NCBI GenBank assembly: GCA_018058685.1
Contig: JAGOZL010000010.1
Coordinates: forward strand, 1-35,357
DNA: 35,357 nucleotides
Reading direction: 5' to 3'
Source of the DNA: Sulfurospirillum sp.
Lineage (GTDB): Bacteria; Campylobacterota; Campylobacteria; Campylobacterales; Sulfurospirillaceae
Below, in pieces: positions 1,501 through 35,256 of this stretch. Each line of letters starts with the position of its first letter. Position 1 is the first letter of the stretch. The notes under the pieces are model-generated. The model was given only the letters and a program-made list of their open reading frames with translations, made no database searches and was not told the DNA's origin. The position numbers were made by a program, and so were the translations under genes.

Positions 1501-2489
1501 CCATTTTGGATGTTGAAACATTTGTCCAGCAAAAGAACAATTTTGACCTTTTAATCGACGCAAGAAGCCCTAAAGAATTTTTCGAATCTCACATTCCTCA
1601 TGCGCAAAATTTCTATGCTCTAAGTGACGCCGAACACCATGAAGTTGGCACCATCTATAAACAAAGCTCACGTAACGATGCAAAAGCTTTAGGGGCTTCT
1701 TACATCTGCGCCAATGTCGCTTCGTACATTCCTCGTATTTATGCACAGTACAAAATAGGCTCACGTATTGGTATTTATTGTGCGAAAGGAGGGCTTCGTT
1801 CAAGCTCTATTGCACTCATTCTCTCTAGCATTGGGTATCAAGTGTTTAAACTAGAAAGTGGGTACAAAAGTTATCGAAACTACGTTTTAGCTTACCTTGA
1901 GCGCTTTACTCATGAGAAGTTTATTGTCCTTGGAGGCAATACTGGATGTGGAAAAACAGAACTTTTGAGCGCTCTTTCTCCCTCCATCGACCTTGAAGGC
2001 TTGGCCAATCATATGGGCTCTTCTTTTGGCGCTATCAAAGGAGCACAACCCACTCAAAAAGCTTTTGAAAACATGCTGTGCGATATTTTGCACACAATAA
2101 ACCCTGATGAGACAATTTTTATCGAAGGGGAGAGTAAACGTATGGGAAATATTACCATTCCATCCCATTTACATGTAAAGATGCAAGAGGGGAAACGCAT
2201 CGAAATCACAGCACCACTTGAACAAAGAGTGATGCGCATTTTAAAAGATTATGAGAGTATTGATCCTGATTTTTTCGCGCAAGCGATGGAAAAAATCACT
2301 CCCTACATCAAAAAAAGTGCTAAAGAAGAAGCTATAGCAGCGTTTAATCAGCATGATTTAACGCGCGTTGCCACACTGTTACTGACAGAATATTACGATA
2401 AAGTTTACAAAAAACCTTCTTTTGTGGCTCATCGCATCGAAAATGATGATTTTTCTTCAACCATTGAAAAACTCCAACAACTCGTCTGA
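1494..2489 (+). CDS. mnmH: tRNA 2-selenouridine synthase MnmH (SelU)
   Basis: Replaces sulfur by selenium in the wobble 2-thiouridine of tRNAs for Lys, Glu and Gln, using selenophosphate, via a geranylated intermediate in the characterised enzymes. The N-terminal half is a rhodanese domain: IDARSPKEFFESHIPHAQN near 21-39 and the catalytic loop YCAKGGLRSSS with Cys96. The C-terminal half is a P-loop domain with Walker A GGNTGCGKTELL near 147-158 and a later IEGESKRMG motif. At 331 residues it is somewhat shorter than the E. coli protein. It starts inside the end of the HIT gene (overlap 1494-1500). It implies that the host makes selenophosphate; selD is not in this window. One exact TTACATGTAA copy lies at 2169-2178. 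Confidence 0.93.
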   Translation: MLTILDVETFVQQKNNFDLLIDARSPKEFFESHIPHAQNFYALSDAEHHEVGTIYKQSSRNDAKALGASYICANVASYIPRIYAQYKIGSRIGIYCAKGGLRSSSIALILSSIGYQVFKLESGYKSYRNYVLAYLERFTHEKFIVLGGNTGCGKTELLSALSPSIDLEGLANHMGSSFGAIKGAQPTQKAFENMLCDILHTINPDETIFIEGESKRMGNITIPSHLHVKMQEGKRIEITAPLEQRVMRILKDYESIDPDFFAQAMEKITPYIKKSAKEEAIAAFNQHDLTRVATLLLTEYYDKVYKKPSFVAHRIENDDFSSTIEKLQQLV

Positions 2490-2564
2490 ACATAAAAATA
2501 TCTCATTTTTTATTACTTTTAGGTTTTGGCTTTTTTAAGCTCGTTTTTACATACTTCATGCAAA

Positions 2565-2593
2565 AATAACACTAATTTAATATCAGTATTATT
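2565..2593. promoter_or_regulatory. Inverted repeat upstream of the nickel operon, possible NikR-type operator
   Basis: AATAACACT (2565-2573) and AGTATTATT (2585-2593) form a 9-11-9 inverted repeat with one mismatch, 16 bases before the nikK start codon. Position and AT-rich dyad form fit an operator overlapping the promoter. The left arm resembles, from memory, NikR sites of Helicobacter. That the binder is NikR is an inference; no nikR gene is in the window. Confidence 0.45.
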
Positions 2594-2609
2594 TATGAGG
2601 AGTATTTGT

Positions 2610-3356
2610 ATGAAAGTATTACTAGCATCACTTGTGTGTGCATCGTCGTTGTTTGCCCATTTCCAAACTGTTATGACGGATAAAACGGTCATTGAACAAG
2701 GTGGAAATCCTAAAGTTACGATTCACTATGAATTTACACACCCATTTGAGCAAGAACTCATGCATATGGAAAAACCCAAAGAAGCAGGTATCTTTAGTGA
2801 GGGTAAAAAAACCTCTCTTCTTTCAAATCTTCAACTCGTGCAAAAAGACAAGTTAAGCAGTTGGAAAAGTGAATATGTGATTAAAGAACCCGGTGTTTAT
2901 CAACTTTATGTTGACCCCATTCCTTATTTTGAGCCCTCAGAAGAAAAATTTATCCGTCATCAAACCAAAACAATCATCGATGCTTTTGGTTCAGGGGAGG
3001 GTTGGGATCAGCCTATTGGACTAAAAGCAGAGATTATTCCTCTTGCTCGTCCTTATTCACTTTATGCAGGAAATCTTTTTAGCGGACAAGTCCTCTACAA
3101 AGGAAAACCTGTTCCCAATGTAGAAATCGAGTATGAATTTTACAACACCAAAGGTTTTAAAGCTCCCAATGATATGTACATCACGCAAGTGGTCAAGGCT
3201 GATAAAAATGGTATTTTTCATGTAGCGCTCCCTGAAGAAGGTTGGTGGGGTTTTGCCGCATTGATGGAAGACGATGAAAAAATTAAAAAAGATGGAAAAA
3301 GCTATCCAATAGAATTGGGTGCTGTACTTTGGATTAAAACAGAAGCGATGAAATAG
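2610..3356 (+). CDS. nikK: NikK-like exported nickel-binding component (DUF4198)
   Basis: A 248-residue exported protein of the DUF4198/NikK type that accompanies ECF nickel transporters and probably presents Ni(II) to the membrane part. A signal peptide is clear (MKVLLASLVCASSLFA), and cleavage after FA would leave a mature N-terminal histidine (HFQTV), a plausible metal ligand. The body is predicted mainly beta (TVIEQGGNPKVTIHYEFTHPF and GKPVPNVEIEYEF, an Ig/carboxypeptidase-regulatory style repeat). ATG 2610 is preferred over an in-frame ATG at 2526 because it has GAGGAG at 2597-2602 and a proper signal peptide. It is the first gene of nikK-M-L-Q-O; the nikM start follows one base after its stop. 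The function rests on this context as much as on sequence. Confidence 0.85.
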   Translation: MKVLLASLVCASSLFAHFQTVMTDKTVIEQGGNPKVTIHYEFTHPFEQELMHMEKPKEAGIFSEGKKTSLLSNLQLVQKDKLSSWKSEYVIKEPGVYQLYVDPIPYFEPSEEKFIRHQTKTIIDAFGSGEGWDQPIGLKAEIIPLARPYSLYAGNLFSGQVLYKGKPVPNVEIEYEFYNTKGFKAPNDMYITQVVKADKNGIFHVALPEEGWWGFAALMEDDEKIKKDGKSYPIELGAVLWIKTEAMK

Positions 3357-3357
3357 T

Positions 3358-3963
3358 ATGCATTTAAGCGAAGGGATTTTAAAACCTGAGATTTTAATGG
3401 TAGGTGCAGGTATATCGGCTGTGCTTACCTTTTATGCTTTTAAGACACTCAAAGATGAAGAAATCCCCAAAACTGCTGTTCTCTCAGCACTCTTTTTTTT
3501 AGCTACCTTTATTCATATCCCCATTGGTCCAACCTCTGTTCATCTGGTTTTAGGTGGCTTGGTTGGTGCACTTTTAGGAATGCGTGCTTTTATTGCGATT
3601 TTTGTTGCTTTGTTACTTCAAGCTCTTTTATTTGGCTTTGGAGGCATCACGACACTGGGTATCAATCTTTTCAATCTTGCCACGCCTGCACTTCTTGCAG
3701 GATTTCTTTTCACGATACCCGTTAAACACGCATGGCAAAAAAATATACTTTGGTTTGCGTTAGGATTTATCCCTTTATGCCTTTCAGCACTTTTACTCTC
3801 TTTGACACTTTCTCTCAATGGTGAATTATTTGTTGATGCAGCAAAACTAGCACTTTTAGCGCATCTTCCTGTGATGATTATCGAAGGGTTGATAACACTG
3901 TTTGCACTGCGTTTCATTGAAAAAGTCTCTCCTGCTTTATTATTACATGTAAAGAAACACTAA
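3358..3963 (+). CDS. nikM: NikM/CbiM-type substrate-specific ECF component
   Basis: The membrane S-component that binds the metal in energy-coupling-factor nickel/cobalt transporters. The protein begins MHLSEGIL, the family N-terminus in which the amino group of Met1 and the ring of His2 are metal ligands, which fixes the start at 3358. Several hydrophobic helices follow, with FIHIPIGPTSVHLVLGG near residues 56-72 containing the further conserved histidines. Length 201 is normal. Nickel rather than cobalt is inferred from the accompanying NikK and NikL proteins and the absence of cobalamin genes or CbiN. An exact TTACATGTAA lies at 3943-3952 and encodes the C-terminal LHV. The stop overlaps the next start (TAATG). 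Confidence 0.92.
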   Translation: MHLSEGILKPEILMVGAGISAVLTFYAFKTLKDEEIPKTAVLSALFFLATFIHIPIGPTSVHLVLGGLVGALLGMRAFIAIFVALLLQALLFGFGGITTLGINLFNLATPALLAGFLFTIPVKHAWQKNILWFALGFIPLCLSALLLSLTLSLNGELFVDAAKLALLAHLPVMIIEGLITLFALRFIEKVSPALLLHVKKH

Positions 3964-4373
3964 TGCGCTTCTTTCTCCTTTTCACACTTTTTTTTACGTC
4001 ATCACTGTTGGCACACAAGCTCAATATTTTTGCTTATGATGAAGCGGGGAAGCTTTTTATACACAGTTATTTTACAAAATCATCTCCTTGCAAAGGGTGT
4101 CAAGTCTACCTCTTGGATGAAAATCAGCATGAATTAACACAAACAAAGACGAATGATGAAGGTAAGGTGTCACTTTCATTACCTTCTTCTTCCTTTTTCA
4201 TTGTCGTTGAAGCGGGCATGGGGCATCAGCAACAGATTCATTATATCGCTCAAAGTGAACCAAAAAAAGAGCCAACGGAACATGCATGGGTTAAAATAGC
4301 ATTAGGACTTGCTATAATTTTCCTTTTCTTTGGAGTCTTAACGTGGTTCAAAAAACACCCTCTATCTCGATAA
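3963..4373 (+). CDS. nikL: NikL-like auxiliary membrane-anchored component
   Basis: A 136-residue protein with a signal peptide (MRFFLLFTLFFTSSLLA), then HKLNIF, again a histidine at the predicted mature N-terminus as in NikK. It has an extracytoplasmic beta domain with CKGCQVYLLD and DEGKVSLSLP, resembling a small carboxypeptidase-regulatory fold, and one C-terminal membrane helix (IALGLAIIFLFFGVLTWF). This is the NikL layout, which replaces the two-helix CbiN of cobalt systems. Its exact role is unclear; it is thought to be needed for full transporter activity. It overlaps nikM by one base, and its end overlaps nikQ by 31 bases. Confidence 0.8.
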   Translation: MRFFLLFTLFFTSSLLAHKLNIFAYDEAGKLFIHSYFTKSSPCKGCQVYLLDENQHELTQTKTNDEGKVSLSLPSSSFFIVVEAGMGHQQQIHYIAQSEPKKEPTEHAWVKIALGLAIIFLFFGVLTWFKKHPLSR

Positions 4374-5020
4374 CCCCTAGTATTGCACTGCTTTTAGCGC
4401 TTAGTTATAGCACTATCATTGCTTTACAAACCCATCTTTTTTTTCCTATGCTTTTTCCTTTGATATTTATGATGATGATTGCACGTAGCCATTGGGTTAT
4501 ACTTTTAAAGCGTCTTTTTTGGCTCAACACCCTTATCCTCTTAGTCGTACTCACCCTTTTCATACAAAATAACGTCTCTCTTGCATTATTGATTTTTATA
4601 CGCTCAAACCTTATCTTGGCGTTTATTCTTTTACTTTTTTACGATAAAGATGAGTTTGCCATCTCTTTAGGGATGCGACAATTACGATTTCCACACAAGC
4701 TTACAGCCCTTTTTTTCTTTACTGCTAAGTCTATTTTCCTTATCAAAAGAGAGTTTGAGCTTTTTAAAAACACCTTACATGTAAGAGGTTTTTCTCCTAA
4801 AACAGACCTTCTCACCTATAAAACGATGGCTGGCTTTGTGGGTATTTTATTGATAAAAGCACTGGAGCGTTCAACACAGCTTCAAAAAGCAATGCACCTT
4901 AGAGGGTTTAAAGGCGAAGTTTACACACTAAACTCCCACGTCACTCTCTCTGGCTATGATATACTCTTGTGTGCTATAACGCTTCTAGCCCTTACTTTAC
5001 GAATAGGAATGTTGATATGA
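4343..5020 (+). CDS. nikQ: NikQ/CbiQ-type ECF transmembrane (T) component
   Basis: The T-component coupling the ATPase to NikM. The 225-residue protein has several hydrophobic helices in its first 105 residues, then the two short coupling-helix motifs with conserved Arg-Gly: LHVRGF (Arg148) and MHLRGF (Arg187), which insert into the ATPase dimer in ECF transporters. Start GTG at 4343 is chosen because GGAG (4332-4335) lies seven bases upstream and the next ATG would remove the first helix; it makes the gene overlap nikL by 31 bases. The first Arg-Gly motif is partly encoded by an exact TTACATGTAA (4775-4784). The stop overlaps the nikO start (ATGA). Confidence 0.9.
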   Translation: MVQKTPSISITPSIALLLALSYSTIIALQTHLFFPMLFPLIFMMMIARSHWVILLKRLFWLNTLILLVVLTLFIQNNVSLALLIFIRSNLILAFILLLFYDKDEFAISLGMRQLRFPHKLTALFFFTAKSIFLIKREFELFKNTLHVRGFSPKTDLLTYKTMAGFVGILLIKALERSTQLQKAMHLRGFKGEVYTLNSHVTLSGYDILLCAITLLALTLRIGMLI

Positions 5021-5735
5021 GTTGTTCTGTCACACTTAAAAATCTCTCCACCTCACGTGAAGGTATTCAACTGTATCAAAACATTACGCTTGATGTCTCA
5101 CATAAAGAAAAAATTGCTATTATTGGACCTAATGGCTGTGGTAAAACAACACTGCTTGAGACCATTGCAGGGCTTCGTGGCATCGAACAAGGAACCTTAG
5201 AACTCTTCCACAAACCGATGCTCTGTGCGAATGATTTTAAAGTTATGCGCCCTTTAATAGGCTATCTTTTTCAAGACTCTGACAATCAATTTTTAGCACC
5301 TGTTGTCGAAGATGATGTTGCCTTTAGTTTACTTGCCCTTGGCGCAACAAAAGAAGAGGCAAAGCTTAAAACAGCGATGATACTTCAAGATTTAGGGATT
5401 TCGCATTTGGCTAAAAAGATTGTCTATCATCTCTCAGGTGGAGAAAAAAAGCTTGTTGCACTAGCTGGTGTATTGATTGTTGAGCCAAAACTGATGCTTC
5501 TTGATGAGCCGACCAATGGCTTAGACCATGCGATGCAACTACGTTTAATTGAGATTTTACGTAAAATTGATAAAAGCATTATCATTGTCTCACACCACAA
5601 AGAGTTCATTGAATCTGTGGTTGAGAAAATATATGAAATTACGCCGCAAGGCTTAGTTTGCTCTATCAATATTAGAAATGAGCACGCCCATGACCACCAT
5701 CATCATCATCACGACCATGATGGTCATCATACGCA

Positions 5736-5739: not shown

Positions 5740-7528
<1,789 letters not shown>

Positions 7529-7559
7529 CTAAATTATTTCAGTTTGTTTCAAAGTGTGT

Positions 7560-7565: not shown

Positions 7566-7601
7566 TTATTTTTGAAATTGCTTATTAAAAAAAGGAAGCC
7601 G

Positions 7602-9148: not shown

Positions 9149-9523
9149 TTATTTAGCACGATTAAACGAATTGTAAATATAATTTGCCATCGCTTTAACA
9201 TCGTATTCGTAGCCTTTTTCTTTGAGCTTTTTCATATTATGTTCCATAACATCATGCTCACTCGCTGTTGACTGCCCAAGTCCACCATTTTTGATATCAA
9301 ACAAGTCCATCTCAAGTTCAGGAATGGTTTTTTTATCAATCGCAGGCCCTTTTTTCTCAGGCATTCCTTCGCCTTTATCACCATGACAATGCGCACATGT
9401 TGCTTTATACACTTCAGCAGGTGTGTATTTATATGTAACAATATCTGACTTTGGTTTATCTCCACAGCCACTTAGAACCAACATCGTAGTAAGCGTAAAA
9501 AGCGTTAATGTTATTTTTTTCAT
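9149..9523 (-). CDS. Monohaem cytochrome c lipoprotein
   Basis: A 124-residue exported class I-like cytochrome c. The N-terminus MKKITLTLFTLTTMLVLSGC is a lipoprotein signal with lipobox LSGC (Cys20), so the protein should be lipid-anchored on the periplasmic side. The haem site is CAHCH (43-47), followed by GDKGEGMPEKKGPAI; later methionines, for example in DVMEHNM, could be the distal ligand. The C-terminal AMANYIYNSF is the helix typical of this fold. A good ribosome site (AAGGAAAA) precedes ATG 9523. It lies 30 bases after the SQR-like gene and is its likely electron acceptor or donor; that pairing is inferred from position. Confidence 0.9.
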   Translation of the reverse strand: MKKITLTLFTLTTMLVLSGCGDKPKSDIVTYKYTPAEVYKATCAHCHGDKGEGMPEKKGPAIDKKTIPELEMDLFDIKNGGLGQSTASEHDVMEHNMKKLKEKGYEYDVKAMANYIYNSFNRAK

Positions 9524-11448: not shown

Positions 11449-12354
11449 ATGATAGCTTGTGATTTGGGCTCCAATACCTTACGTATTGCTCAATTTGATA
11501 CATTTACATGTAAACGTACACGCTGCTTTGAAAAAATTGTTCGTACGGCTAAAGATTTACACCTTACGCGATGTATTGGGGAAGAGGCACAAACGAATAT
11601 TTTAAATGCACTTCAAGAAGCTTCTAGTCTTTTTGATTTTGCACATGAACCAAGCTTTTGTGTTACAACAGAAGCTATGCGAGTTGCTAGCAATGCGCAT
11701 GAAGTTTTGGCACTCATCAAAAAAGAATTTGGATTATCGTTTATTATTATCAGTGGAGAAGAAGAGGCATCTTACACAGCTTTAGCCATTGAACACGCCT
11801 TAAGACGAGAGGGATTATGCGATGATACCTATGTCCTTTTTGATTTAGGAGGAGGTTCGACAGAAATTACTTTATGTTACCAATATGTAAAAAAAAGCAG
11901 AAGCTTTCCTTTTGGTATCGTAACCACAGCTGAACGTTTTAAAGAGCATTTAGATGAAAACATTTCATCACTTCTTTCAATGAGCGATTCTTTTCTCAAA
12001 GAAGAGAAGAACCTCCACAAAACCTACAAACAGCTTATTGCCACAGCAGGAACACCCACAACGGTTGCTGCTTTTTTACAAGGCTTAGACTATGAACATT
12101 ATGCACCTGAAAAAGTCAATGGAAAATGCTTACATGTAAATGATTTTGATGCAGCACTTAAAGAGCTTAGTGCTATGCCTTTACATGTAGCAGAACGTTA
12201 CACGGGAACCAATCGGAGAGATTTGGTAATTGTTGGCATTGTTTTGGTGAAAGGGATTATGAAAAAACTAGGCTTTGAAAGCTGTATTGTGATGGATGAT
12301 GGGTTGAGAGAGGGTGTGGCTATTTCAAATTGTAACAAAGCTGTGAGTTCTTAA
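11449..12354 (+). CDS. Ppx/GppA-family phosphatase
   Basis: A 301-residue member of the exopolyphosphatase / pppGpp phosphohydrolase family (actin-like ATPase fold). Motifs: MIACDLGSNTLRIAQFD at the N-terminus, IISGEEEASYTALA, the phosphate loop VLFDLGGGSTEITLCY and LIATAGTPTTVAA. It consists only of the core N-terminal domains; the C-terminal HD-like region of E. coli Ppx and GppA is missing, as is common in shorter bacterial homologues. It may degrade polyphosphate or pppGpp; the sequence does not decide. Exact palindrome copies at 11504 and 12130 and a one-mismatch copy at 12181 lie in this gene. A short gap and a clear promoter separate it from ilvB. Confidence 0.88.
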   Translation: MIACDLGSNTLRIAQFDTFTCKRTRCFEKIVRTAKDLHLTRCIGEEAQTNILNALQEASSLFDFAHEPSFCVTTEAMRVASNAHEVLALIKKEFGLSFIIISGEEEASYTALAIEHALRREGLCDDTYVLFDLGGGSTEITLCYQYVKKSRSFPFGIVTTAERFKEHLDENISSLLSMSDSFLKEEKNLHKTYKQLIATAGTPTTVAAFLQGLDYEHYAPEKVNGKCLHVNDFDAALKELSAMPLHVAERYTGTNRRDLVIVGIVLVKGIMKKLGFESCIVMDDGLREGVAISNCNKAVSS

Positions 12355-15834: not shown

Positions 15835-15841
15835 ACACTTT

Positions 15842-15871
15842 TACATGTAAGGCTTTTATGCCTTACATGTA
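15842..15871. terminator. Hairpin built from two TTACATGTAA-type palindromes, likely bidirectional terminator
   Basis: TACATGTAAGGC (15842-15853) and its exact complement (15860-15871) surround the six-base loop TTTTAT. It lies between convergent genes, and the stop codon of the minus-strand gene is in the loop. Neither side has a long T-tail. Each arm contains a copy of the genome-iterated palindrome. Confidence 0.55.
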
Positions 15872-17058
15872 GCCACATACTCTTCAATCGCAACTGCAAC
15901 GCGTTTTGAAAATGCAACCGCCTCAACAACCGTTCTAGCTCCTGTAACAGCATCACCCGAAGCAAAAACACCTTCCATCGTTGTGCGTCCACTTTCATCG
16001 GTAATCACTAGTCCTTTTCCATCGACTTCAATTTCACGTGTATTTTTAACAATATTATCAGTAGGATTTTGACTAATCGCTACAAGAATGGTGTCAGCTT
16101 CAATAAAACCTTCCTCTTCATCGCCATTCGTTGCTAAATACTTCACACCTTCTTCTGTGATTTCAATAGGTTGTTTATAAAGTTCAAACTTCACACCATC
16201 GATTTTTGCACACTCAACTTCATGATGTGATGCGGGAATATCCTCCATCCCTCTTCGGTACAAGATAATCACTTCTTTAGCATGATTCCTTACCGCTGTT
16301 CGAGCCACATCCATAGCTACATTTCCCGCACCTAAAACAACAACACGTTTGCCTAAACGGTATACCGATGGACTTTTGAGATAATCTATCGCAAAATGAA
16401 CGTGTCCTAAACTCTCGCCTTTAATGCCAAGCTTCTTGGATGACCAAACCCCTGTTCCTATAAAAACTGCTTTAAATTCGTCACGGAATAGGTCACTAAT
16501 CGTAATGTTTTTACCAATTGTGATATTGGGACGAATACATACATCGAGTTGTTCAAGTTTTGTAACAATCGTGTCTAAAATACTTTTATTGAGTCTAAAA
16601 TCAGGAATACCATAACGCAAAACTCCACCGATTTTATCATGCGCATCATACATAGTAATTTCATACCCTTTGGCACCTAAAAGAAAGGCTAAAGCAATAC
16701 CAGCAGGACCACTTCCAATAATAGCAATTTTGTGACCATTTTTTGCAGGCTTCTCAAATTGCAAATCATTCATATACAAATCAGAAATATAATTTTCAAT
16801 ACTTCCAACACTCACCGCTGTTCCTTTTTTATTAAGAACACAATGCCCTTCACAATGCTTTTCATGGGGACAAACTAAAGAACAAATGGCAGAGAGTGGA
16901 TTATTTTCAAAAAGCATTTTGCCAGCTTTTTTAATATCACCTGCTAAAAAAAGACGTATCATTTCTGCGATAGGCGTTCCTACGGGACAACCTGTTTGAC
17001 AGGAAGGTTTTTTACAGCCTAAACACGTTTTGGCAAGTGTAATGGCATACTTGTTCAT
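15856..17058 (-). CDS. Stand-alone GltD/NfnB-like NAD(P)-dependent Fe-S flavoprotein
   Basis: A 400-residue oxidoreductase related to the glutamate synthase small subunit. The N-terminal domain has two four-cysteine groups, CLGCKKPSCQTGC (Cys12, 15, 20, 24) and CSLVCPHEKHCEGHC (Cys59, 63, 69, 73), expected to bind two [4Fe-4S] clusters. FAD site: KIAIIGSGPAGIALAF. NAD(P) site: RVVVLGAGNVAMDVART. The C-terminal FASGDAVTGARTVVEAVA closes the FAD domain. No large subunit (gltB) is beside it, so the partner is unknown. Relatives act in glutamate synthase, NADPH-ferredoxin transhydrogenase (Nfn), sulfide dehydrogenase and dihydropyrimidine dehydrogenase. AAGGA precedes ATG 17058 and a -10 box lies at 17093-17098. 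Confidence 0.85.
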   Translation of the reverse strand: MNKYAITLAKTCLGCKKPSCQTGCPVGTPIAEMIRLFLAGDIKKAGKMLFENNPLSAICSLVCPHEKHCEGHCVLNKKGTAVSVGSIENYISDLYMNDLQFEKPAKNGHKIAIIGSGPAGIALAFLLGAKGYEITMYDAHDKIGGVLRYGIPDFRLNKSILDTIVTKLEQLDVCIRPNITIGKNITISDLFRDEFKAVFIGTGVWSSKKLGIKGESLGHVHFAIDYLKSPSVYRLGKRVVVLGAGNVAMDVARTAVRNHAKEVIILYRRGMEDIPASHHEVECAKIDGVKFELYKQPIEITEEGVKYLATNGDEEEGFIEADTILVAISQNPTDNIVKNTREIEVDGKGLVITDESGRTTMEGVFASGDAVTGARTVVEAVAFSKRVAVAIEEYVATCKA

Positions 17059-21006: not shown

Positions 21007-22215
21007 TTAAAAATCTTCAATCTTAACGATTGTTTCTTCTTTTGTTTCTAAATTTTTAACCCATACACTTTTTCGTTTTAACTCGTCTTCACCTAAACAT
21101 ACACAAAATTTTACATATAATTTATCAGCTATTTTTAAATGGTTTTTGAGTGATTTTGACTCATATGCGCTCAAAACTTTATCGCTTTTTCGCTTTTTAA
21201 TCGCCAAATCAAAAACAAGCTCTAACGCTTCATCACACAATGCACCTAAATAATAGCCCTCACGCGAAACTTCAGGCATCTTCACAAGTTCCATCAAACG
21301 CTCAATGCCCATTGCAAAACCAACACCTGGAGTTGGTTTACCATCCAAAAACTCAACCAATCTATCGTAACGTCCACCACCGGCAATCGCACTTTGCGCT
21401 CCAATTTCTGAGCTTACAAATTCAAAAGCACTCTTTGAGTAATAATCAAGCCCACGAACTAATTTAGGATTGACTGTGTAGCTTATATCAAAGCGATTTA
21501 AGGTATTTTTGAGTACTTCAAAATCATCCGAACAATTTTGACATAATTGGTTGACTAAAATGGGTGCTTTTTCAAGCAAGCCTTTACACGTCTCATTTTT
21601 ACAATCAAGAACACGAATAGGATTGGTTGCCTTTCGTCGCTCACAATCTTCGCACAAACCCTCCAATGAGTCTAAAAATGCTACGAGCTTGGTTTTATAG
21701 ATGGGCATACATTCAGGACAGCCTAAAGAGTTAATTTCTAAGGTATAGCCAATCCCTAAAGCGTGAAACATCTCGGAGAGCATCAAAATGATGGTCGCAT
21801 CTTCTTTAACACTTCCCTCACCAAAGGTTTCTGCACCAAATTGGTGAAATTGTCTTAGGCGACCTTTTTGAGGTCTTTCATAGCGAAACATAGGACCGTG
21901 ATAGAAAAAGCGTCTTGTGCCACCTGCTTTATCGTATTTTTGTTGTATAAAAGCACGCACAACACCCGCCGTTCCTTCTGGACGTAAGCAGACATCATTG
22001 CCACCTTTATCGATAAATTGATACATCTCTTTGCCAACGATATCACTGCTTTCACCCACACTTCGTTTGAACAAAGCCGTCTCTTCTAAAATCGGTGTTT
22101 CAATAAATGAAAAGCCATAGTTTTGAGCAATCTTCGTACATGTATTGATAACATGCGCATAGATTTCACTCTCGGGGGAGAGGGTATCTTTCATTCCACG
22201 TAATGCATTAACCAT
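21007..22215 (-). CDS. hisS: Histidyl-tRNA synthetase HisS
   Basis: Charges tRNA-His. In the 402-residue class II synthetase, motif 2 is MFRYERPQKGRLRQFHQFGAE, the histidine-specific segments are CLRPEGTAGVVRA and LVRGLDYYSKSAFEF, and motif 3 is GVGFAMGIERL. A cysteine-rich stretch, with CPEC, CEDC, CKNETC and CQNC pairs around residues 168-225, looks like a small zinc-type insertion seen in a subset of bacterial HisRS. ATG 22215 is used because GAGGAA lies seven bases upstream; an in-frame ATG at 22230 adds only MRNLF. It overlaps the end of tmk by eight bases. Confidence 0.95.
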   Translation of the reverse strand: MVNALRGMKDTLSPESEIYAHVINTCTKIAQNYGFSFIETPILEETALFKRSVGESSDIVGKEMYQFIDKGGNDVCLRPEGTAGVVRAFIQQKYDKAGGTRRFFYHGPMFRYERPQKGRLRQFHQFGAETFGEGSVKEDATIILMLSEMFHALGIGYTLEINSLGCPECMPIYKTKLVAFLDSLEGLCEDCERRKATNPIRVLDCKNETCKGLLEKAPILVNQLCQNCSDDFEVLKNTLNRFDISYTVNPKLVRGLDYYSKSAFEFVSSEIGAQSAIAGGGRYDRLVEFLDGKPTPGVGFAMGIERLMELVKMPEVSREGYYLGALCDEALELVFDLAIKKRKSDKVLSAYESKSLKNHLKIADKLYVKFCVCLGEDELKRKSVWVKNLETKEETIVKIEDF

Positions 22216-22792
22216 AAATAAATTCCTCAATTTTCTGATAAATACTTTCTCTATCTAAGCTTGCATCCACTTCTAAAAAAGGGATTGAGAGCTTATGTAA
22301 TATTTCTCGCATTATAGCTTGAATCTGTAACAAATAGCTTACACCCCGACTTTCAATCGCATCGTGAGTTTTTCCTTGTAACCGCGCGCGCAAAAGCTCT
22401 TCGTTGGTGATAAATAAAACAATTTTTTCAGGATACTGCTCACGGAGTGCAAAATGATTTAAAGAGAGTAAAAACGCTCTATTCATTTCTGGATGATTTG
22501 CGCACGCATACGCAACACCCGATAAAAATCCTCTATCACTGATGACGATTTTCTCGCATCGTGCTTCTTTCACGATGGTATCGTAATGCAATGCACGGTC
22601 TGCTAAAAATAAAAACAACTCAGCATTAAACGAGAGCTTGTCTTTACCATCCAATAAAATAGAGCGCAATTTTTTACCTGTCGGTGTTCCTCCTGGCTCT
22701 TTTGTTGCAATCACATCATGGTGCCTCGCTGCAAAAAAATCCACTTGTGTGCTCTTTCCACACGTATCAACGCCTTCGAAAATTACGTACAT
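22208..22792 (-). CDS. tmk: Thymidylate kinase Tmk
   Basis: Phosphorylates dTMP to dTDP for DNA synthesis. A 194-residue P-loop kinase: FEGVDTCGKSTQ (phosphate loop, with the dTMP-kinase Asp), EPGGTPTGKKLR, the DR motif in ISDRGFLSGVAY and the LID region RLQGKTHDAIESRG. The start codon at 22792 lies inside a one-mismatch copy of the iterated palindrome (22787-22796) and within the last codons of coaD, a 10-base overlap. Unusually, the palindrome here therefore touches a translation start. Confidence 0.93.
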   Translation of the reverse strand: MYVIFEGVDTCGKSTQVDFFAARHHDVIATKEPGGTPTGKKLRSILLDGKDKLSFNAELFLFLADRALHYDTIVKEARCEKIVISDRGFLSGVAYACANHPEMNRAFLLSLNHFALREQYPEKIVLFITNEELLRARLQGKTHDAIESRGVSYLLQIQAIMREILHKLSIPFLEVDASLDRESIYQKIEEFIYG

Positions 22793-23268
22793 GTAAATCT
22801 ACTTTTAAAATAAGGTTTAATCACGGAAGGTACCAAATGGCTTACTTCTCCGCCATGCTTTAACACGGAGCGCACGACAGATGAGCTAATAAATGCATGT
22901 TTAAGGCTTGGCATCAAATAAAGTGTCTCCACTTCATCCCACAAAGATGCATTGGCATAACCCATTTGAAGTTCGTATTCAAAGTCACTCACCGCTCTAA
23001 GCCCACGAATGATAACGCGAATATTTTTTTGCTGTGAAAAATGCACCAAAAGACCATCAAAAGGTTCTACGTCCACACCTGCAATATCCTTAGTGGCTGC
23101 TTTTGCCATCTGTACACGGGTTTCGATGTCAAACATAGGGCGTTTGTCTTCAGAGAGGGCAACACCAATGAGGACTTTATCAAAAAGTTTCTTCGCTCGT
23201 TTAATAACATCCAAATGACCATTGGTGATAGGATCAAACGTTCCAGGATAAATCGCAATCGTTCTCAT
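22783..23268 (-). CDS. coaD: Phosphopantetheine adenylyltransferase CoaD
   Basis: Adenylates 4'-phosphopantetheine to dephospho-CoA. The 161-residue length is normal. The N-terminus MRTIAIYPGTFDPITNGHLD carries the nucleotidyltransferase (T/H)xGH motif; RGLRAVSDFEYELQM and the ISSSVVR signature follow near the C-terminus. ATG 23268 is chosen because it overlaps the ubiX stop as ATGA and has GGGAGG just upstream; an in-frame ATG at 23280 would add MGGC. It overlaps tmk by ten bases. Confidence 0.95.
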   Translation of the reverse strand: MRTIAIYPGTFDPITNGHLDVIKRAKKLFDKVLIGVALSEDKRPMFDIETRVQMAKAATKDIAGVDVEPFDGLLVHFSQQKNIRVIIRGLRAVSDFEYELQMGYANASLWDEVETLYLMPSLKHAFISSSVVRSVLKHGGEVSHLVPSVIKPYFKSRFTCT

Positions 23269-29193: not shown

Positions 29194-31095
29194 ATGCTTT
29201 TAGAGAAGTTTTTGCAAGAAACGGGCAAAATGAGAATTTCTCACCTTTTCTTTGACACAAAGCAATTAGGTATCTTAGAACCTCTTCAAAAAGAGCATCC
29301 CCAATTTACAGTTTATCCGCTGACTGAGCAAACCCATGTGATTCCATCTTCCGAAGTTCTTTTTATTGAATTAGGACAAAGTACTAAAGAAAAATTTAAA
29401 ACCTTAGTGGGAATCTTTACCAAACATAAACCTCTCGTTTCATATATCTTTGCAGATGATGTTGAAGACAGACTTTTACTTAAGTTTGCACTGCACTTTG
29501 GTATCACCGATGTGTTACCTCTGCGTAACGATGAAGCGCTATTACATTCTATTTTTACTAAAAATGCCAACAAGCTTGACACAACACTGGAAACATTTAA
29601 ACGCCTTGATATCGAACAAAAAATGGAGCGTTGTTTTGCTTTTTTGATTTTTAAAGAAGGCTCTCTCGTCTATGCTAACACGAAAGTCAAAAGGCTTTTT
29701 GGGGAAACCTGTGTACATACTATTGAAAAATGCCTTTATGAAGACAATGTCATTTCTAAACTTTTAAGTTCTGATGAAGATGCACAGACCAATATCGTTA
29801 TAGAAACGGAAGAGAATGAGAAAGAACTTTATGTCTGTTTGTTAAATAATTTTCCAAGCAGCAATGAAAAAATGCTAAGTTTTTTACCTCATTCGATAGA
29901 TCCAGACCACAACAGTTGTTCTACAATCCTCAATCGCTTTGATTTTGTGGATAAACTCAAAGACAAATTGGCACAACAAAGTATCAGCCAAAAGCCTATT
30001 TCACTTATTTTTCTCAATATTTCAAACCTTGATAAACTCAACACCTCTTTTACCAATATTACACTCTACGAATCCCTCAAACGCCTTTTATCAAAAGTTT
30101 TTCAGCTCAAAGAAGATGCCCAAGACATAGCACAATGGAGTCCTAATCTTTACATTCTCTTATGTGAAAACTGCAATTTTGAGGAATCGTGTGAGCAAAC
30201 ACGTTTTTTACATCAAGAATTAGTACATTTTTCTTTGGAAGAAAAAGTATCACCCATTATTATCTCTTCCACGCTTTCAAGTGAAAAGCATAGTCTCAAT
30301 GATTTGCTCACATACATCGAAAAAATTAACACCCAAAATTTACTCAGCTCCGATATTGAAAAATTACATTACCATGAAATTGGATATTTAGAAAATATCG
30401 CTGATACAAAAGAGCAGATTAACTATCTGATGCGAAATTGTATTAACAATAAAATTCCTATTAAACTTCTCAATATCTACAAAGGCTTGTGTATCAACAC
30501 GCAGTCGTATGTTATTAAGTACAGTGATGATACGTATCATCTTCATTGTGAAAATTTACAAGGTTATGCGATGCAACTTGAAGGTGAAACGGTTCTGCAA
30601 GCACCAAACTTTCCTAAAGATATCAAAGCAGAAGTCACTTTGGTTGATATCAAAAAAGGTTTTGTGATTATTAAAAACTTAAATTTCATGCCTTACAGCG
30701 CTAATAATCGCCAACATACCCGAGTTCAAACCACTATCCGAACCCCCATTCTCATACGTTATGCACAAAAGTCATCTGCACAAGGTGAGATTATCGATAT
30801 TTCCATCAACTCAATTGCTATTCGCTGTAATAATAAGCTGATGAAACACGAGCTTTTAAATCAACCTGTACGTTTGAATTTTTCGTTGCCATCAGAAGAG
30901 GGTGAAAATGGCTATGTTATTATGGACATAACTGCTAAAGTAACTTATGTGAGTGAGAGCGAAGACCATACCAAAGTTGTTGTGATGCTAGGAGCTTTGA
31001 AAAAACCTTACGATGACTACCTTTTAAGTTACATGTATTCACGCCAAAAAGAGCTCATCTTGGAGATACGCAGAGCAACAAAAGTGTACAATTAA
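29194..31095 (+). CDS. PilZ-domain protein with degenerate receiver/GGDEF-like N-terminus
   Basis: A 633-residue soluble protein, probably a c-di-GMP responder. A PilZ-type domain starts near residue 500: RQHTR (506-510) fits the RxxxR motif, and DISINS (535-540) fits DxSxxG except that the glycine is serine. About 115 residues at the start (ISHLFF, VLFIELGQ, IFADD, FGITDVLPL) look receiver-like without a clear phosphoacceptor set. The region around 265-385 (ISLIFLNISNLDKLN, then ESLKRLLSKVF and a WSPNLYILL strand) resembles a diguanylate cyclase fold whose GGDEF signature is gone. AAAGG precedes ATG 29194. It is transcribed alone, away from murA. Domain calls before the PilZ part are by pattern only. 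Confidence 0.78.
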   Translation: MLLEKFLQETGKMRISHLFFDTKQLGILEPLQKEHPQFTVYPLTEQTHVIPSSEVLFIELGQSTKEKFKTLVGIFTKHKPLVSYIFADDVEDRLLLKFALHFGITDVLPLRNDEALLHSIFTKNANKLDTTLETFKRLDIEQKMERCFAFLIFKEGSLVYANTKVKRLFGETCVHTIEKCLYEDNVISKLLSSDEDAQTNIVIETEENEKELYVCLLNNFPSSNEKMLSFLPHSIDPDHNSCSTILNRFDFVDKLKDKLAQQSISQKPISLIFLNISNLDKLNTSFTNITLYESLKRLLSKVFQLKEDAQDIAQWSPNLYILLCENCNFEESCEQTRFLHQELVHFSLEEKVSPIIISSTLSSEKHSLNDLLTYIEKINTQNLLSSDIEKLHYHEIGYLENIADTKEQINYLMRNCINNKIPIKLLNIYKGLCINTQSYVIKYSDDTYHLHCENLQGYAMQLEGETVLQAPNFPKDIKAEVTLVDIKKGFVIIKNLNFMPYSANNRQHTRVQTTIRTPILIRYAQKSSAQGEIIDISINSIAIRCNNKLMKHELLNQPVRLNFSLPSEEGENGYVIMDITAKVTYVSESEDHTKVVVMLGALKKPYDDYLLSYMYSRQKELILEIRRATKVYN

Positions 31096-31845: not shown

Positions 31846-32649
31846 TTAGGCTCCTAAATTTAAAGATTCTGCAACAGAATTGTGTCGATAGCCTTCAAGA
31901 TCAAGCGTTACATGTAAAAATCCAAGCGACTTAAGATGTGCACACATTTCATTCAATCGTTGGTCTTTTAAAAGATGAAGCGCGTGCGATTGGGGCATTT
32001 CAATCCTTGCCAACCCCTCTTCATAACGCACGCGTATGTTGCCATAGCCTTGTTCTATCATGTATCCCTCCGCCATTCCTACCATGCCCATTGCTTTTTC
32101 ATCAATGATTTTATCGTAAGGAAACCGCGTCAGTAAGCACGCATAAGAGGGTTTATCCCATGTGGAGAGCTCCATATCTTTGGAAAGTGCGCGTATCTCC
32201 TCTTTGGTCAGCCCCACATCGAGAAGTGGCGTTTTGATGCCAAGCTCACCCAGTGCCACGCGACCGGGTCGGTACTCTTTGGTATCGTCAACATTACTCC
32301 CTTCGGCTACGGCGCTAAAACCTTTTTGTTTCGCGACGTCAAGGAGTGAAGAGAAGAGGGCGTGTTTGCAGAGGTAACATCGGTTTTTAGGGTTCTCACG
32401 AATCGCTTCGATCCAAGGTTTAACAACGACTTCATGACATGCACCGATCTCATCGGCGATGCAAATCGCATCTTTAACTTCCCAATCTGCAATATACGGT
32501 GTTGATACTGTAATACCGATGACTTTGTTTCCCAAAACATCATGCGCCGCTTTGAGCAAAAAACTGCTGTCAACACCACCCGAAAAGGCGACCACAAGGC
32601 TGTCGTAAGAGCCGATAATTTCCACTAAACGTTCGTATTTTTTATACAT
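31846..32649 (-). CDS. larE: LarE sulfur insertase, three-cysteine type
   Basis: ATP-dependent enzyme that turns the two carboxylates of the LarB product into thiocarboxylates. A 267-residue PP-loop protein: VAFSGGVDSSFLLKAA at 19-34, NVDDTKEYRPGR, and PSYACLLTRFPYDKI. Cys171 in that last motif matches the sacrificial cysteine of the Lactiplantibacillus enzyme. In addition there is a CxxC pair, Cys91 and Cys94 (NRCYLCKHA), absent from that enzyme. The three together match the type, known from Thermotoga maritima, that holds a [4Fe-4S] cluster and may carry sulfur catalytically instead of sacrificing its cysteine. It overlaps larC by eight bases. An exact palindrome lies at 31908-31917. Confidence 0.94.
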   Translation of the reverse strand: MYKKYERLVEIIGSYDSLVVAFSGGVDSSFLLKAAHDVLGNKVIGITVSTPYIADWEVKDAICIADEIGACHEVVVKPWIEAIRENPKNRCYLCKHALFSSLLDVAKQKGFSAVAEGSNVDDTKEYRPGRVALGELGIKTPLLDVGLTKEEIRALSKDMELSTWDKPSYACLLTRFPYDKIIDEKAMGMVGMAEGYMIEQGYGNIRVRYEEGLARIEMPQSHALHLLKDQRLNEMCAHLKSLGFLHVTLDLEGYRHNSVAESLNLGA

Positions 32650-33829
32650 TTTCTTTTCCCATCGCTAAAGTGACACTTTCATAGACCAATGTTATGGGCA
32701 CATTATGTTCACGTGCGGCTTTTTTGCACTCTTCGTATTCGGCTTTGTATTTCACGCGTTTCCCCTCAAAATAGGCACATTTGACACTAATCTCACCGTA
32801 AGGCGTTTTTACATGTAAAACGTTACGCTCCAACGCAATTTTTTGAACCAACGAGCGTCTAAGCCCAATAGATGTTGTCTCCGAAAAGATAATGCGCTTC
32901 GCCTCAGCTTCTTTGTCCAGACTGACTAGGACACTGAGCTTCACACCCAAACGGTTTTTCTTTGTCGTAATGGCAGTCGTGTAGACATCTTTCACACCCG
33001 CTTCAAACAGTTGCTCTTGTACAAAAGAGAGTATTTCAGGGCTCATATCGTCGATATTTGTCTCTAAAATAACCTCTTCGTCCACGCGCTCCTCTTCCTC
33101 GCCCAAATAGACACGCAAAACATTGGGAATACTAAAATCCTTATGCCCGATGCCATATCCGATCTTCTCAATCACCAAAGAGGGCTTAGCTTCATACGCA
33201 TCGACATTGGCTTTGAGAATGGCAGCACCGGTGGGCGTTGTTGTTTCAGAAGCCACGCGTCCTAGGGTGATAGGTACGTTTTGAAGGATTTCTACGGTTG
33301 CAGGAGCAGGCACAGGAAGCGTACCATGCGCACACGTAACAAATCCACCACCTAATTCAATTTTTGAAGCGATTATCTTTTTTACATGTAAAGCTTCCAA
33401 ACAGATGGAAGCGCCCACAATATCGACGATGGAGTCAATCGCACCCACTTCGTGAAAACCAACTTCATCAGGCGCTTTACCGTGGATTTTCCCCTCCGCT
33501 AAAGCGACTGTCCAAAACATCTTCAAGCTTCGCTCTTTGATGCTTTGAGCCAGCGTACTAGCATTGATAATCGCTTCAATGCTTTTAAAGGTTCGATGTT
33601 CATGTGTATGCGGATGTGCGTGCCATTGAGGTATTAGTTTAACGCTCACTTTAGTTCCACTAATACCCATTTTACTAGCTTTTTCAATAACCAATTTAAA
33701 GGCAAAATTCAAAGAGAGCTTGGAGAGTTCTTGCCTTAAATATTCTTCTTCCACACCCAAATCCAGTAGTGCGCCTAGATTCATATCGCCGCTGATACCA
33801 CTAAAGCAATCGTAGTAGAGAACTCTCAT
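32642..33829 (-). CDS. larC: LarC nickel insertion protein, single frame
   Basis: CTP-dependent cyclometallase that inserts Ni into the pincer nucleotide. The 395-residue protein has the family start YYDCFSGISGDMNLGALLDLG, a histidine-rich loop WHAHPHTHEH near residues 69-78, GFHEVGAIDSIVDIVGA, the GGGFVTCAHGTLPVPAPATVE segment and TNIDDMSPE in the C-terminal part. LarC1 and LarC2 form one continuous frame here, whereas the Lactiplantibacillus gene needs a ribosomal frameshift. It starts 14 bases after the larA stop. Two exact palindromes lie inside (32809 and 33382). Confidence 0.95.
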   Translation of the reverse strand: MRVLYYDCFSGISGDMNLGALLDLGVEEEYLRQELSKLSLNFAFKLVIEKASKMGISGTKVSVKLIPQWHAHPHTHEHRTFKSIEAIINASTLAQSIKERSLKMFWTVALAEGKIHGKAPDEVGFHEVGAIDSIVDIVGASICLEALHVKKIIASKIELGGGFVTCAHGTLPVPAPATVEILQNVPITLGRVASETTTPTGAAILKANVDAYEAKPSLVIEKIGYGIGHKDFSIPNVLRVYLGEEEERVDEEVILETNIDDMSPEILSFVQEQLFEAGVKDVYTTAITTKKNRLGVKLSVLVSLDKEAEAKRIIFSETTSIGLRRSLVQKIALERNVLHVKTPYGEISVKCAYFEGKRVKYKAEYEECKKAAREHNVPITLVYESVTLAMGKENV

Positions 33830-33843
33830 ATTTATCCTTAAAC

Positions 33844-35103
33844 TTAGTTACTCACGACTTTGGGAACCGTAATTGAACCAAAAGGAAGCACGATGATACT
33901 CGCGTTTTCACCTTTTTCTTTAATCGCCTCAGCGAGTGCTACATGTAAATCATGGTAAGGCTTTAAATGTACCGCTTTCATCTCTTCATCACTCAGTTCA
34001 CTGACCGCCCAACTTTGCGCCCAAAGGTTGATTTCCGCCATTTTTGCCGCCTTGTGGTAGCCTAGTTTGTAACCGCATTTGATTTTATTGAGCACTTCTT
34101 GTGGGCAGTGCGCTGAACTCATCAGTTTAAAGAAACCCTCTTCGCCGATGCCCGTACGACATTTCGCAACCATGATGAGAATACCTTTGTCTTTAAGCGC
34201 TAATTTACCATTATCCAGTGCTTTTTGAGACTGATAGAGGTCGATGTCCATCGGATAGGGAGCAACAGAGATAACGATGTCTGCTTTTTGCGGAATATTC
34301 ACACAAAAAACTTCATCGGCTTTATCAATCGCAGCGTAAAACGAATCACTCAAATCGCCTGCCGTTACAGCACAAATGTCATGATCGCTGTCCAAAACGG
34401 TCATAATCGCAAAGACATCAATGTGGCTTAACACGTTCATCGCGTCCATCATATCTTCATGCACAGGATTGCCTTTTAAGCAGAGCGCTTGAGCATTGGG
34501 ATGAAGCGCTAAGAGGTGATTTTGCTCAATCGTCTCAAATGCCGCAACACCAGGTAAAAACGCTTTGCGTCCACCCGTGTAACCTGCAAAATAGTGCGGT
34601 TCTACAGAGCCAATTGCGCAGACTTTCTTCGCTTCAGCAACGATTTTATTGAGGTACATTTCTGTGCCATTGGTGGATTTTCCAAGATATACCATCGTAT
34701 CCTTGCGTGAATCGTGACTCCAAAGGCGATTCTTTACATGTAAATCTTCGTAGATCTCTTTGCCTAAGATAAAATGCCACTCTTCTTCGGTAGGTGCGCG
34801 ATGACAGCCCGTTGCAACGATAAAATAGATATCTTTGTCTTTAACTTTGGGGTACATACGTGCGAGCACTTTACGCGTTGGAGTAGGGCGCGTGCCATCA
34901 TTGACGATGAAAACAATACGCTCATCGGTGTCGATAAAATGATCGAAACTCTCTTTGCCAAGAGGCTGCACAAGCGCTTCATCAAGTGCTTGATTGTAGT
35001 CAATTTTAGCAACACTATTAGGGTTATAAACACCCACCAGTTGTTTCTCGCATATCTCTAACTCAAATGTTTCATCTTTGCCATAACCAACACTTACTTT
35101 CAT
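33844..35103 (-). CDS. larA: LarA-family nickel-pincer racemase
   Basis: Racemase or epimerase of 2-hydroxyacids that uses the nickel-pincer nucleotide. The 419-residue protein keeps the residues known in lactate racemase: His101 in ATGCHRAPTEEE, His170 and the cofactor lysine Lys180 in SVEPHYFAGYTGGRKAF, and His196 in TIEQNH, with spacings 170-180-196 equal to 174-184-200 of the reference enzyme. NDGTRPTPT (69-77) carries the substrate arginine. The substrate is uncertain, because LarA homologues also include malate and other racemases; the adjacent hydro-lyase suggests considering a C4 acid. ATG 35103 has AAGGAT six bases upstream and is preferred to ATG 35160. An exact palindrome is at 34734-34743 and a one-mismatch copy at 33939. 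Confidence 0.93.
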   Translation of the reverse strand: MKVSVGYGKDETFELEICEKQLVGVYNPNSVAKIDYNQALDEALVQPLGKESFDHFIDTDERIVFIVNDGTRPTPTRKVLARMYPKVKDKDIYFIVATGCHRAPTEEEWHFILGKEIYEDLHVKNRLWSHDSRKDTMVYLGKSTNGTEMYLNKIVAEAKKVCAIGSVEPHYFAGYTGGRKAFLPGVAAFETIEQNHLLALHPNAQALCLKGNPVHEDMMDAMNVLSHIDVFAIMTVLDSDHDICAVTAGDLSDSFYAAIDKADEVFCVNIPQKADIVISVAPYPMDIDLYQSQKALDNGKLALKDKGILIMVAKCRTGIGEEGFFKLMSSAHCPQEVLNKIKCGYKLGYHKAAKMAEINLWAQSWAVSELSDEEMKAVHLKPYHDLHVALAEAIKEKGENASIIVLPFGSITVPKVVSN

Positions 35104-35209
35104 ACAATATCCTTTATCATATTTATTTTTTGAACAAAAAACCTCTTTAATTTTTATCACTACCTAACATTATCAAAGAGTGCGGAAGGATTTTTTTGAA
35201 TTAAAGAGC

Positions 35210-35244
35210 AAAACCAAGAGGGAGGGTATCCCTCTTTGGGTTTT
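35210..35244. terminator. Hairpin between the hydro-lyase gene and larA
   Basis: AAAACCAAGAGGG (35210-35222) pairs with CCCTCTTTGGGTTTT (35230-35244), with one bulged and one unpaired base and a seven-base loop. On the minus strand it follows the stop of the gene entering from the right and ends in TTTT, so it probably terminates that gene and separates it from the lar operon. Confidence 0.65.
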
Positions 35245-35256
35245 ACATGTAAAGGC

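Follow-up and report, generated by a model that had tools for sequence, protein, structure and literature searches.

The highly iterated palindrome TTACATGTAA occurs throughout the genomes of Sulfurospirillum and some other Campylobacterota under DNA-level constraint

The perfect palindrome TTACATGTAA, in which 2 of 10 bases are G or C, is a genome-wide highly iterated palindrome (HIP) of Sulfurospirillum and of a few other Campylobacterota, and it is maintained at the level of DNA. It had been noted in a first-pass annotation of a 35,357-nucleotide stretch of Sulfurospirillum sp. (contig JAGOZL010000010.1 of assembly GCA_018058685.1), the whole of which is called the window below. The word is enriched throughout genomes, conserved site by site and constrained in its DNA letters; selection or drive acts on the DNA itself. 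These properties point to a previously undescribed genome-wide DNA signal, an AT-rich relative of the highly iterated palindromes. No published description of the motif was found in the literature searched (subscription journals, supplements and REBASE lay outside the search), and the main text of Elhai (2015, PMC4390886) makes no mention of Campylobacter or Sulfurospirillum. Among the mechanisms considered, a self-DNA signal read during DNA uptake ranks first, as a tentative proposal.

Enrichment and spread across the phylum

A recount of the window gave 18 exact copies, the number reported in the first-pass annotation, and 8 one-mismatch copies where six had been listed. An order-3 Markov model predicts 0.08 exact copies, close to the rough 0.1 previously estimated from composition, and exact plus one-mismatch words together averaged 2.15 (maximum 6) in 100 shuffles of the window. 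The nested counts were 29 for ACATGT, 25 for TACATGTA and 18 for the full TTACATGTAA, so that 18 of the 29 hexamer cores do carry complete flanks. No other 10-bp palindrome in the window was found at the counting floor of four copies.

The possibility raised at the outset, that the word falls to background frequency outside the window, was not borne out. The window's own draft genome (G000; 1.82 Mb, 86% complete, 157 contigs) holds 840 copies of TTACATGTAA, against 0 for its reversed control. When TTACATGTAA was masked in computing the background, the counts in five genome samples were 174 versus 0.30 expected (G006, 400 kb), 41 versus 0.11 (G001, 100 kb), 50 versus 0.09 (G361, 120 kb), 23 versus 0.21 (G168, 140 kb) and 28 versus 0.13 (G156, 140 kb). 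This corresponds to 110–580-fold enrichment, compared with at most 5.5-fold for other 10-bp palindromes; the next most enriched one in the G006 sample was seen 5 times versus 1.24 expected. An unmasked background gave about 220-fold for the window and for G001.

All 24 genomes of the genus carried the word, with 49 to 1,496 copies (reversed control 0–10), and 19 of them had 605–1,496 (G005: 1,220 copies in 2.8 Mb). Of the 5 genera (44 genomes) that make up the family, one with 10 genomes had 6–97 copies and the three others besides Sulfurospirillum 22–733. In a phylum sample of 397 genomes, 363 of the 374 outside the family had 0–19 copies. Six scattered genomes outside the family had 194–1,059 (G361, 1,059; G391, 380; G156, 367; G381, 354; G168, 340; G333, 194), followed by five lower outliers (G221, 96; G346, 78; G354, 77; G201, 48; G234, 31).

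Samples of the motif-poor genomes G010, G018 and G022 contained no substitute 10-bp palindrome enriched more than 5-fold; the 8-bp words TCACGTGA (5 versus 0.68, G022) and TTCGCGAA (5 versus 0.71, G018) were mildly raised. Separately, a sample of motif-poor G033 (L344–L348), which has a CATG-family methylase, showed TCATGA 2.0-fold and ATCATGAT 3.8-fold over expectation; 21 of the 31 ATCATGAT copies share one codon frame, and codon use may be responsible rather than an alternate iterated palindrome. CATG was depleted to 0.52 of expectation in G345 (L349–L353) and to 0.59 in G068 (L354–L358), and non-palindromic 10-mers were over-represented there, among them CCCATCATAT (G345, 14 copies, 21-fold) and CTAGATTTTC (G068, 19 copies, 36-fold). 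Close motif pairs in 42 viral-contig stretches were set aside as unrelated phage repeats, a judgement made from the look of the pairs and their density only.

Anatomy of the word

Counts of variants, placement, conservation and codon frame in this and the following sections rest on genome samples. One-letter variants in five sampled genomes were concentrated at the two outer bases (84 seen versus 3.3 expected), whereas the eight inner bases varied at close to the background rate (37 versus 31.0). Inner variants were threefold in excess in motif-poor G010, G018 and G022 (36 versus 12.0), as expected of decayed relics. The preference for particular bases extends into the flanks, with T at −1 and C at −2 in G006, G001 and G361, and C at −1 in G156; it is weak in G168. 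Adenine is avoided in the position adjoining the core, whereas from −4 to −8 it is slightly favoured.

Conservation and constraint at the DNA level

Orthologs of window positions 1–20,000 were compared by pairwise BLAST alignment. Among 13 motif-rich species (mean identity 0.80), 80.5% of 1,024 pair-sites were exact and 2.8% one letter off, whereas control 10-mers of equal G+C were identical in 21.2% of the same comparisons; these pair-site counts repeat identical loci across related species. Towards motif-poorer G010, G018, G011, G015 and G021, 15.9% of 327 sites were exact and 21.1% one-off, with 14.0% of controls exact. Among individual assemblies, 69.2% of 65 aligned sites were exact for G000, and 79.6% of 49 towards G014.

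In coding pair-sites of motif-rich species, all ten letters were kept in 610 of 799, a count in which loci again recur across related species. (The 100% amino-acid identity at motif codons among such keepers is true by construction and is not evidence.) Flanking codons encoded the same amino acid at 73% of kept and 61% of unkept sites in motif-rich pairs. Where the word is absent in the relative, the motif codons agree less than their flanks, both towards G010 and G018 (53% versus 73%) and in motif-rich pairs (49% versus 61%), which indicates that the word sits at protein positions free to vary.

The behaviour of variants of the 8-bp core follows the codon frame. Of the 15 exact copies within genes of the window, 12 are read as Leu-His-Val and 3 as Thr-Cys, the two frames named in the first-pass annotation; the third frame would end in a stop codon. 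Pooling six samples, 31 of 47 variants in the Leu-His-Val frame alter only the last base, to G, and 16 of 30 in the Thr-Cys frame alter only the first, to C (12) or G (4). The last base was C or T in 14 of 20 stop-frame core copies versus 11 of 299 in the other two frames. The only stop-frame copies among the 26 in the window, at 1014 (last base C) and 31029 (last base T), had been singled out previously for exactly this change, which thus proves to be general. Exact copies made up 108 of 113 between genes and 227 of 319 within genes in the same pool. Since end variants follow the frame and intergenic copies are nearly all exact, the whole ten-letter word is evidently wanted, with proteins forcing most of the exceptions. 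The earlier suggestion that selection acts on DNA is upheld by this pattern and by the conservation above.

Placement, spacing and hairpins

Placement was analysed in 400 kb of G006, where 109 of 175 copies lie inside genes and 66 are not wholly inside an open reading frame (ORF); ORFs here and throughout are simple longest-ORF calls. Density is about 1.7 per kb in noncoding DNA versus 0.30 per kb in genes. Copies are enriched behind genes: between codirectional genes, 21 of 31 start at most 21 bp past the upstream stop, versus 9.5 expected in the same gaps, a number that 0 of 20,000 simulations of random placement reached, and 6 of the 31 are equally near the downstream start. Convergent and codirectional gaps hold 1.8–1.9 copies per kb and divergent gaps 0.97. 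Neighbouring copies are less than 60 bp apart in 11 of 172 spacings. Per-20-kb density had a variance/mean of 0.97 (20 windows), with no large-scale structure in the sampled blocks. Even spacing, as a candidate regularity, was rejected for this sample by its clumped distribution (see Discussion).

Three inverted pairs of the motif folded as hairpins with z between −6.7 and −7.5, including the pair at 15841–15872 of the window (z −7.5), for which short matches occur elsewhere in the genus. The sole exact copy left at aligned sites in G010, and likewise in G018, is part of a hairpin-forming inverted pair. In plasmids of S. diekertiae, 39.9 kb and 38.0 kb of sequence contained 4 copies each, compared with 1,220 in the 2.8 Mb of genome G005.

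A candidate methylase partner

When 20 genomes were searched with PF02086, several of the motif-rich ones proved to encode an adenine methylase of the D12 class, ~328 aa long. It matches PADLOC MTase_II (E 8e-110), belongs to the N6-adenine D12 class with a DPPY motif, and has family-level similarity to the HpyIM/NlaIII type. In the Helicobacter-like genomes G098 and G062, the homologue is flanked by a 171-aa hexapeptide protein and a 578-aa ABC transporter, a neighbourhood that we take to be the cysE-iceA-hpyIM locus of H. pylori. The site recognised by H. pylori hpyIM is CATG (available part of PMC4450513), which forms the centre of the palindrome; family membership suggests that the motif-associated enzyme is itself specific for CATG. 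Motif-associated copies outside the genus are 38–56% identical to that of G001, and gene clusters at the methylase locus of G001 recur in G002, G003, G006 and G012. No restriction genes were present among the scanned neighbours in G001, G038, G042, G156, G361 and G381, and the methylase is apparently solitary.

Fifteen of the 24 genus genomes have this methylase (in G013 in two pieces), and these hold 362–520 motifs per Mb, or 869–1,496 copies. The nine without the motif-associated type range from 19 to 461 per Mb (Mann-Whitney p 5e-4, with no correction made for kinship or for how complete the assemblies are). In a genus tree that leaves out G013, G016, G020 and G023, motif and methylase are associated in one clade: the 11 species placed in clade I combine the methylase with 406–512 motifs per Mb, except for the nested pair G010 and G018, in which the gene is missing and motif density is 19 and 85 per Mb.

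In a tree of 49 methylase copies, a 28-row clade (support 95/96) comes from genomes with 0–107 motifs, except G043 (446), G011 (411) and G015 (605), and all 21 sequences outside it come from genomes with 264–1,496; several of the motif-associated copies are on long branches. With 28 sequences added (77 in total, like the 49 a subset of the matches), the two-clade split was weaker (fork 82/67), and G156, G041 and G042 fell among the others; a single motif-associated clade was neither rejected nor demonstrated in this wider tree (p-AU 0.505). The exceptions G011 and G015 carry a methylase copy of the other branch. A methylase fragment interrupted by stop codons in G043 most resembles the motif-associated copy of G041, from the same genus (69% over 62 aa), whereas the C-terminal fragment in G034 is nearer to the other branch. 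Among seven copies of the other clade looked at, restriction-type genes lie beside the methylase in G354, G221 and G037, and none was seen among the scanned neighbours in G033, G201, G011 and G015. Among loci around wider-family methylases from many phyla (the best 80 of 485, 1.31 Mb), there were 27 copies of TTACATGTAA, of which 26 were in nine Campylobacterota loci and one in a Bacteroidota locus.

Other methylase families were considered as well. PF01555 methylases were rejected as a common partner, with matches in 4 of 15 genomes (G017, G010, G038 and G361) and none in G001, G006, G168, G381, G156 or G391. PF07669 matched in 12 of 12 genomes, mostly in long proteins that we take to be type I or IIG enzymes. 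G168 and G014, motif-rich without the D12 methylase, have in common a 70%-identical methylase of 488–504 aa (L196, L211), presumably HsdM-like and a possible partner, though HsdM does not set specificity. Contig 17 of motif-rich G391 (L046:1468–2715), which is without the usual methylase, encodes a 416-aa remote D12 methylase, a possible functional replacement. Two plasmids of S. diekertiae also carry a relative of the methylase (L102:1692–2732, L343:7141–7687); it is a single gene on pSDCE1, whereas the annotation of pSDIE1 splits it into pieces.

Discussion

We favour, short of calling it probable, a self-DNA (uptake) signal with a methylatable core as the mechanism behind the palindrome. 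A cellular DNA reader, most likely in natural transformation, would prefer DNA carrying the symmetric site; copies would accumulate and be restored through uptake and recombination; and the CATG core would probably be adenine-methylated in many species by the solitary HpyIM/NlaIII-type methylase. We infer the methylation of the site, the existence of a reader and uptake as its function. The reading is ranked first since copy number, placement behind genes, hairpin pairs, turnover among lineages and a precedent in the same phylum all fit it. The 869–1,496 copies in the 15 methylase-bearing genomes of the genus resemble the range of known uptake sequences. The uptake sequences of Neisseria (DUS) and Pasteurellaceae (USS) have, besides similar copy number, intergenic over-representation, inverted pairs that act as terminators and, for USS, A/T-rich flanks. 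The likeness to them that had been proposed holds for the intergenic excess (G006) and for the terminator-like hairpins of close inverted pairs; it fails in that DUS and USS are directional and evenly spaced, while TTACATGTAA is symmetric and, in G006, clumped.

The precedent is that of C. jejuni, which imports only DNA methylated at RAATTY by CtsM (available part of PMC10046745). There an adenine methylase marks self-DNA for uptake; part of Sulfurospirillum has a D12 methylase with no restriction genes among its scanned neighbours, which may play a comparable role. RAATTY is short and degenerate, unlike TTACATGTAA. The HpyIM/M.HpyAI/NlaIII CATG methylases belong to the same sequence family as the motif-associated enzyme, whose copies are diverged. 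In many genomes of family f3, presumably the Campylobacteraceae, the Sulfurospirillum methylase has a distant relative (E frequently around 1e-45 to 1e-60), which we take to be CtsM. In one f3 genome (G068), GAATTC, AAATTT and GAATTT were not strongly enriched (0.9–1.4-fold).

Several observations weigh against an uptake signal with a methylated core. The site is symmetric, unlike directional uptake sequences, and no hidden direction was found in its flanks (left and right flank scores were not anticorrelated at 215 sites). Spacing in G006 is clumped, with a coefficient of variation (CV) of 1.24 versus 0.99 ± 0.07 for random placement, and still 1.18 without the close pairs. ComEC, the inner-membrane uptake channel, is encoded in 48 of 50 genomes tested (the two misses are incomplete assemblies), and as it is also present in motif-poor genomes it does not discriminate. 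In clade II (G000, G014, G019, G021, G022, G011, G015) no methylase of the motif-associated type was found, but motif density still reaches 461 per Mb in G000 and 389 per Mb in G014, whose assemblies are 86% and 99% complete. No such methylase was found in G014, G019, G021, G022, G035, G168, G333 or G346, which have 78–934 motifs. Conversely, wider-family methylases occur in many motif-poor genomes, so that the family alone is not sufficient. The early idea of a methylation link is plausible in view of the half of the genus where a CATG-family methylase tracks the motif, but the window's own assembly, G014 and several other motif-rich genomes speak against a simple form of it; in those, either another methylase replaces the missing one or methylation is not the cause.

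The most serious alternative, which we regard as possible but clearly less likely than an uptake signal, is a ratchet of methylation and repair: a solitary methylase modifies the palindrome, and methyl-dependent repair or replication favours its creation and retention, after Elhai's proposal for HIP1; the sites themselves would perhaps be a by-product, or perhaps a mark of the old strand. The concentration of deviations at the outer base, as in HIP1, agrees with it, and so do the tracking of the motif by the methylase in clade I and the gene fragments in G043 and G034. However, the Epsilonproteobacteria are described as being without multiple mismatch-repair genes (available part of PMC2147049), several motif-rich genomes without the methylase keep their sites well, as towards G014, and the end variation largely follows the codon frame, which looks like selection for the complete site and not like a stepwise ratchet.

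Rather unlikely, though with some anatomy in its favour, is a binding site for a dimeric protein of chromosome organisation, segregation or replication, recognising about 16–26 bp made of a strict 8-bp core, T/A ends and dyad-symmetric flanks of T, C and then A-rich sequence. The flanks are symmetric and extended (G006, G001, G361 and G156; weakly so in G168), the inner core is all-or-none, S. diekertiae is rich in copies on its chromosome and poor on its plasmids, and the reduced density in divergent (promoter) gaps is not what a simple regulator would be expected to show. Against such a protein, the near disappearance of the word from G010 and its steep fall in G018 and G022 would be odd for an essential function, as would presence only in scattered lineages outside the family, and the sampled G006 blocks, whose ori-ter position is unmapped, have no large-scale density structure. 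No candidate protein came to light, although no search was directed at one.

A transcription terminator or other RNA-level element spread through genomes is very improbable, and as a general explanation it is mostly refuted by the coding copies: inverted pairs near gene ends do form stable hairpins, and the last exact aligned copies in G010 and G018 belong to such pairs, but most copies in G006 are genic, where termination makes no sense, and close pairs are a minority. An accident of composition or codon usage is refuted by the empty reversed control, by the lack of any comparably enriched 10-bp palindrome, and by the fact that the word is conserved and kept exact in two coding frames as well as in intergenic DNA.

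The comparison with cyanobacterial HIP1, drawn in the first-pass annotation, is a fair one. HIP1 (GCGATCGC) and alternate HIPs are likewise short palindromes enriched genome-wide far beyond chance, the outer base is the tolerant one, and there are exceptional low-frequency relatives, according to the available text of Elhai (2015, PMC4390886). The same text has a methylase for the internal part of the word generally present, here found only in part of the genus, and calls HIPs mainly GC-rich, which characterises the cyanobacterial words and is not a requirement of the class. TTACATGTAA differs in phylum, sequence and length (10 bp against 8 bp), in density (362–520 per Mb in methylase-bearing species against 1,000–2,000), in its enrichment behind genes (G006) and in the reported absence of mismatch-repair genes from its group. 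GCGATCGC did not appear in the lists of top 8-bp palindromes drawn up for the window and four samples.

The function of HIP1 was still called a mystery in 2015 (Elhai, PMC4390886, available part), and the present palindrome offers an independent, AT-rich case in another phylum, with a candidate methylase. G010 and G018 form a natural near-knockout pair nested among motif-rich relatives. Members of the genus are culturable. Should the self-DNA signal be real, the known kinds of uptake specificity would gain one that is palindromic and linked to methylation; if methylation drives the word, highly iterated palindromes need neither a GC-rich word nor a cyanobacterial setting. A bolder version, which we consider speculative and doubtful as a whole, is that a fast-evolving solitary HpyIM relative widened its specificity from CATG to the whole of TACATGTA or TTACATGTAA, that a conserved reader, for uptake or otherwise, pushes the chromosome to about one complete site per 2 kb, and that families have repeatedly acquired and lost the two together, in a group from which standard mismatch repair is reported to be missing, as a new genome-wide self-tag.

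Copies in the window

The exact copies of the window are distributed over genes (15 of 18) and intergenic DNA (3 of 18; Table 1). A library scan of 10 window ORFs returned rhodanese (mnmH), CbiM-type, PdxJ, Ppx-GppA, LpxD, FlgA chaperone, EPSP-synthase-type (MurA), Lar_N, hexapeptide and pyridine-nucleotide oxidoreductase proteins, in support of the gene identities given earlier.

Table 1. Exact and one-mismatch copies of the palindrome, and the hairpin-forming pair, by window position
Feature	Position	Strand	Context
Exact TTACATGTAA	2169..2178	.	rhodanese-domain gene (mnmH)
Exact TTACATGTAA	3943..3952	.	CbiM/NikM-type gene
Exact TTACATGTAA	4775..4784	.	ORF 4343-5020
Exact TTACATGTAA	6886..6895	.	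pdxJ
Exact TTACATGTAA	7477..7486	.	intergenic
Exact TTACATGTAA	11504..11513	.	ppx/gppA, Thr-Cys frame
Exact TTACATGTAA	12130..12139	.	ppx/gppA, Leu-His-Val frame
Exact TTACATGTAA	14886..14895	.	lpxD
Exact TTACATGTAA, first hairpin arm	15841..15850	.	between convergent genes
Inverted motif pair, 13-bp stem, 6-nt loop, G+C-containing stem extension	15841..15872	.	
One-mismatch TTACATGTAG, second hairpin arm	15863..15872	.	overlaps end of ORF 15856-17058
Exact TTACATGTAA	19001..19010	.	hexapeptide transferase (named cysE in the first-pass annotation)
Exact TTACATGTAA	23899..23908	.	flgA
Exact TTACATGTAA	27440..27449	.	ORF 26589-27824
Exact TTACATGTAA	28891..28900	.	murA-type gene
Exact TTACATGTAA	31908..31917	.	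ORF 31846-32649
Exact TTACATGTAA	32809..32818	.	ORF 32642-33829
Exact TTACATGTAA	33382..33391	.	ORF 32642-33829
Exact TTACATGTAA	34734..34743	.	larA
Exact TTACATGTAA	35243..35252	.	intergenic
TTACATGTAC, stop frame, stop removed	1014..1023	+	
TTACATGTAT, stop frame, stop removed	31029..31038	+	
TTACATGTAG, end variant, Leu-His-Val frame	12181..12190	+	
GTACATGTAA, end variant	22787..22796	+	
CTACATGTAA, end variant	33939..33948	+	
TTATATGTAA, interior one-mismatch	9429..9438	+	interior variants are at background level in motif-rich samples
TTACATATAA, interior one-mismatch	21111..21120	+	interior variants are at background level in motif-rich samples

The intergenic inverted repeat at 9101–9136 of the window, which is nearly perfect, is likely an ordinary terminator.

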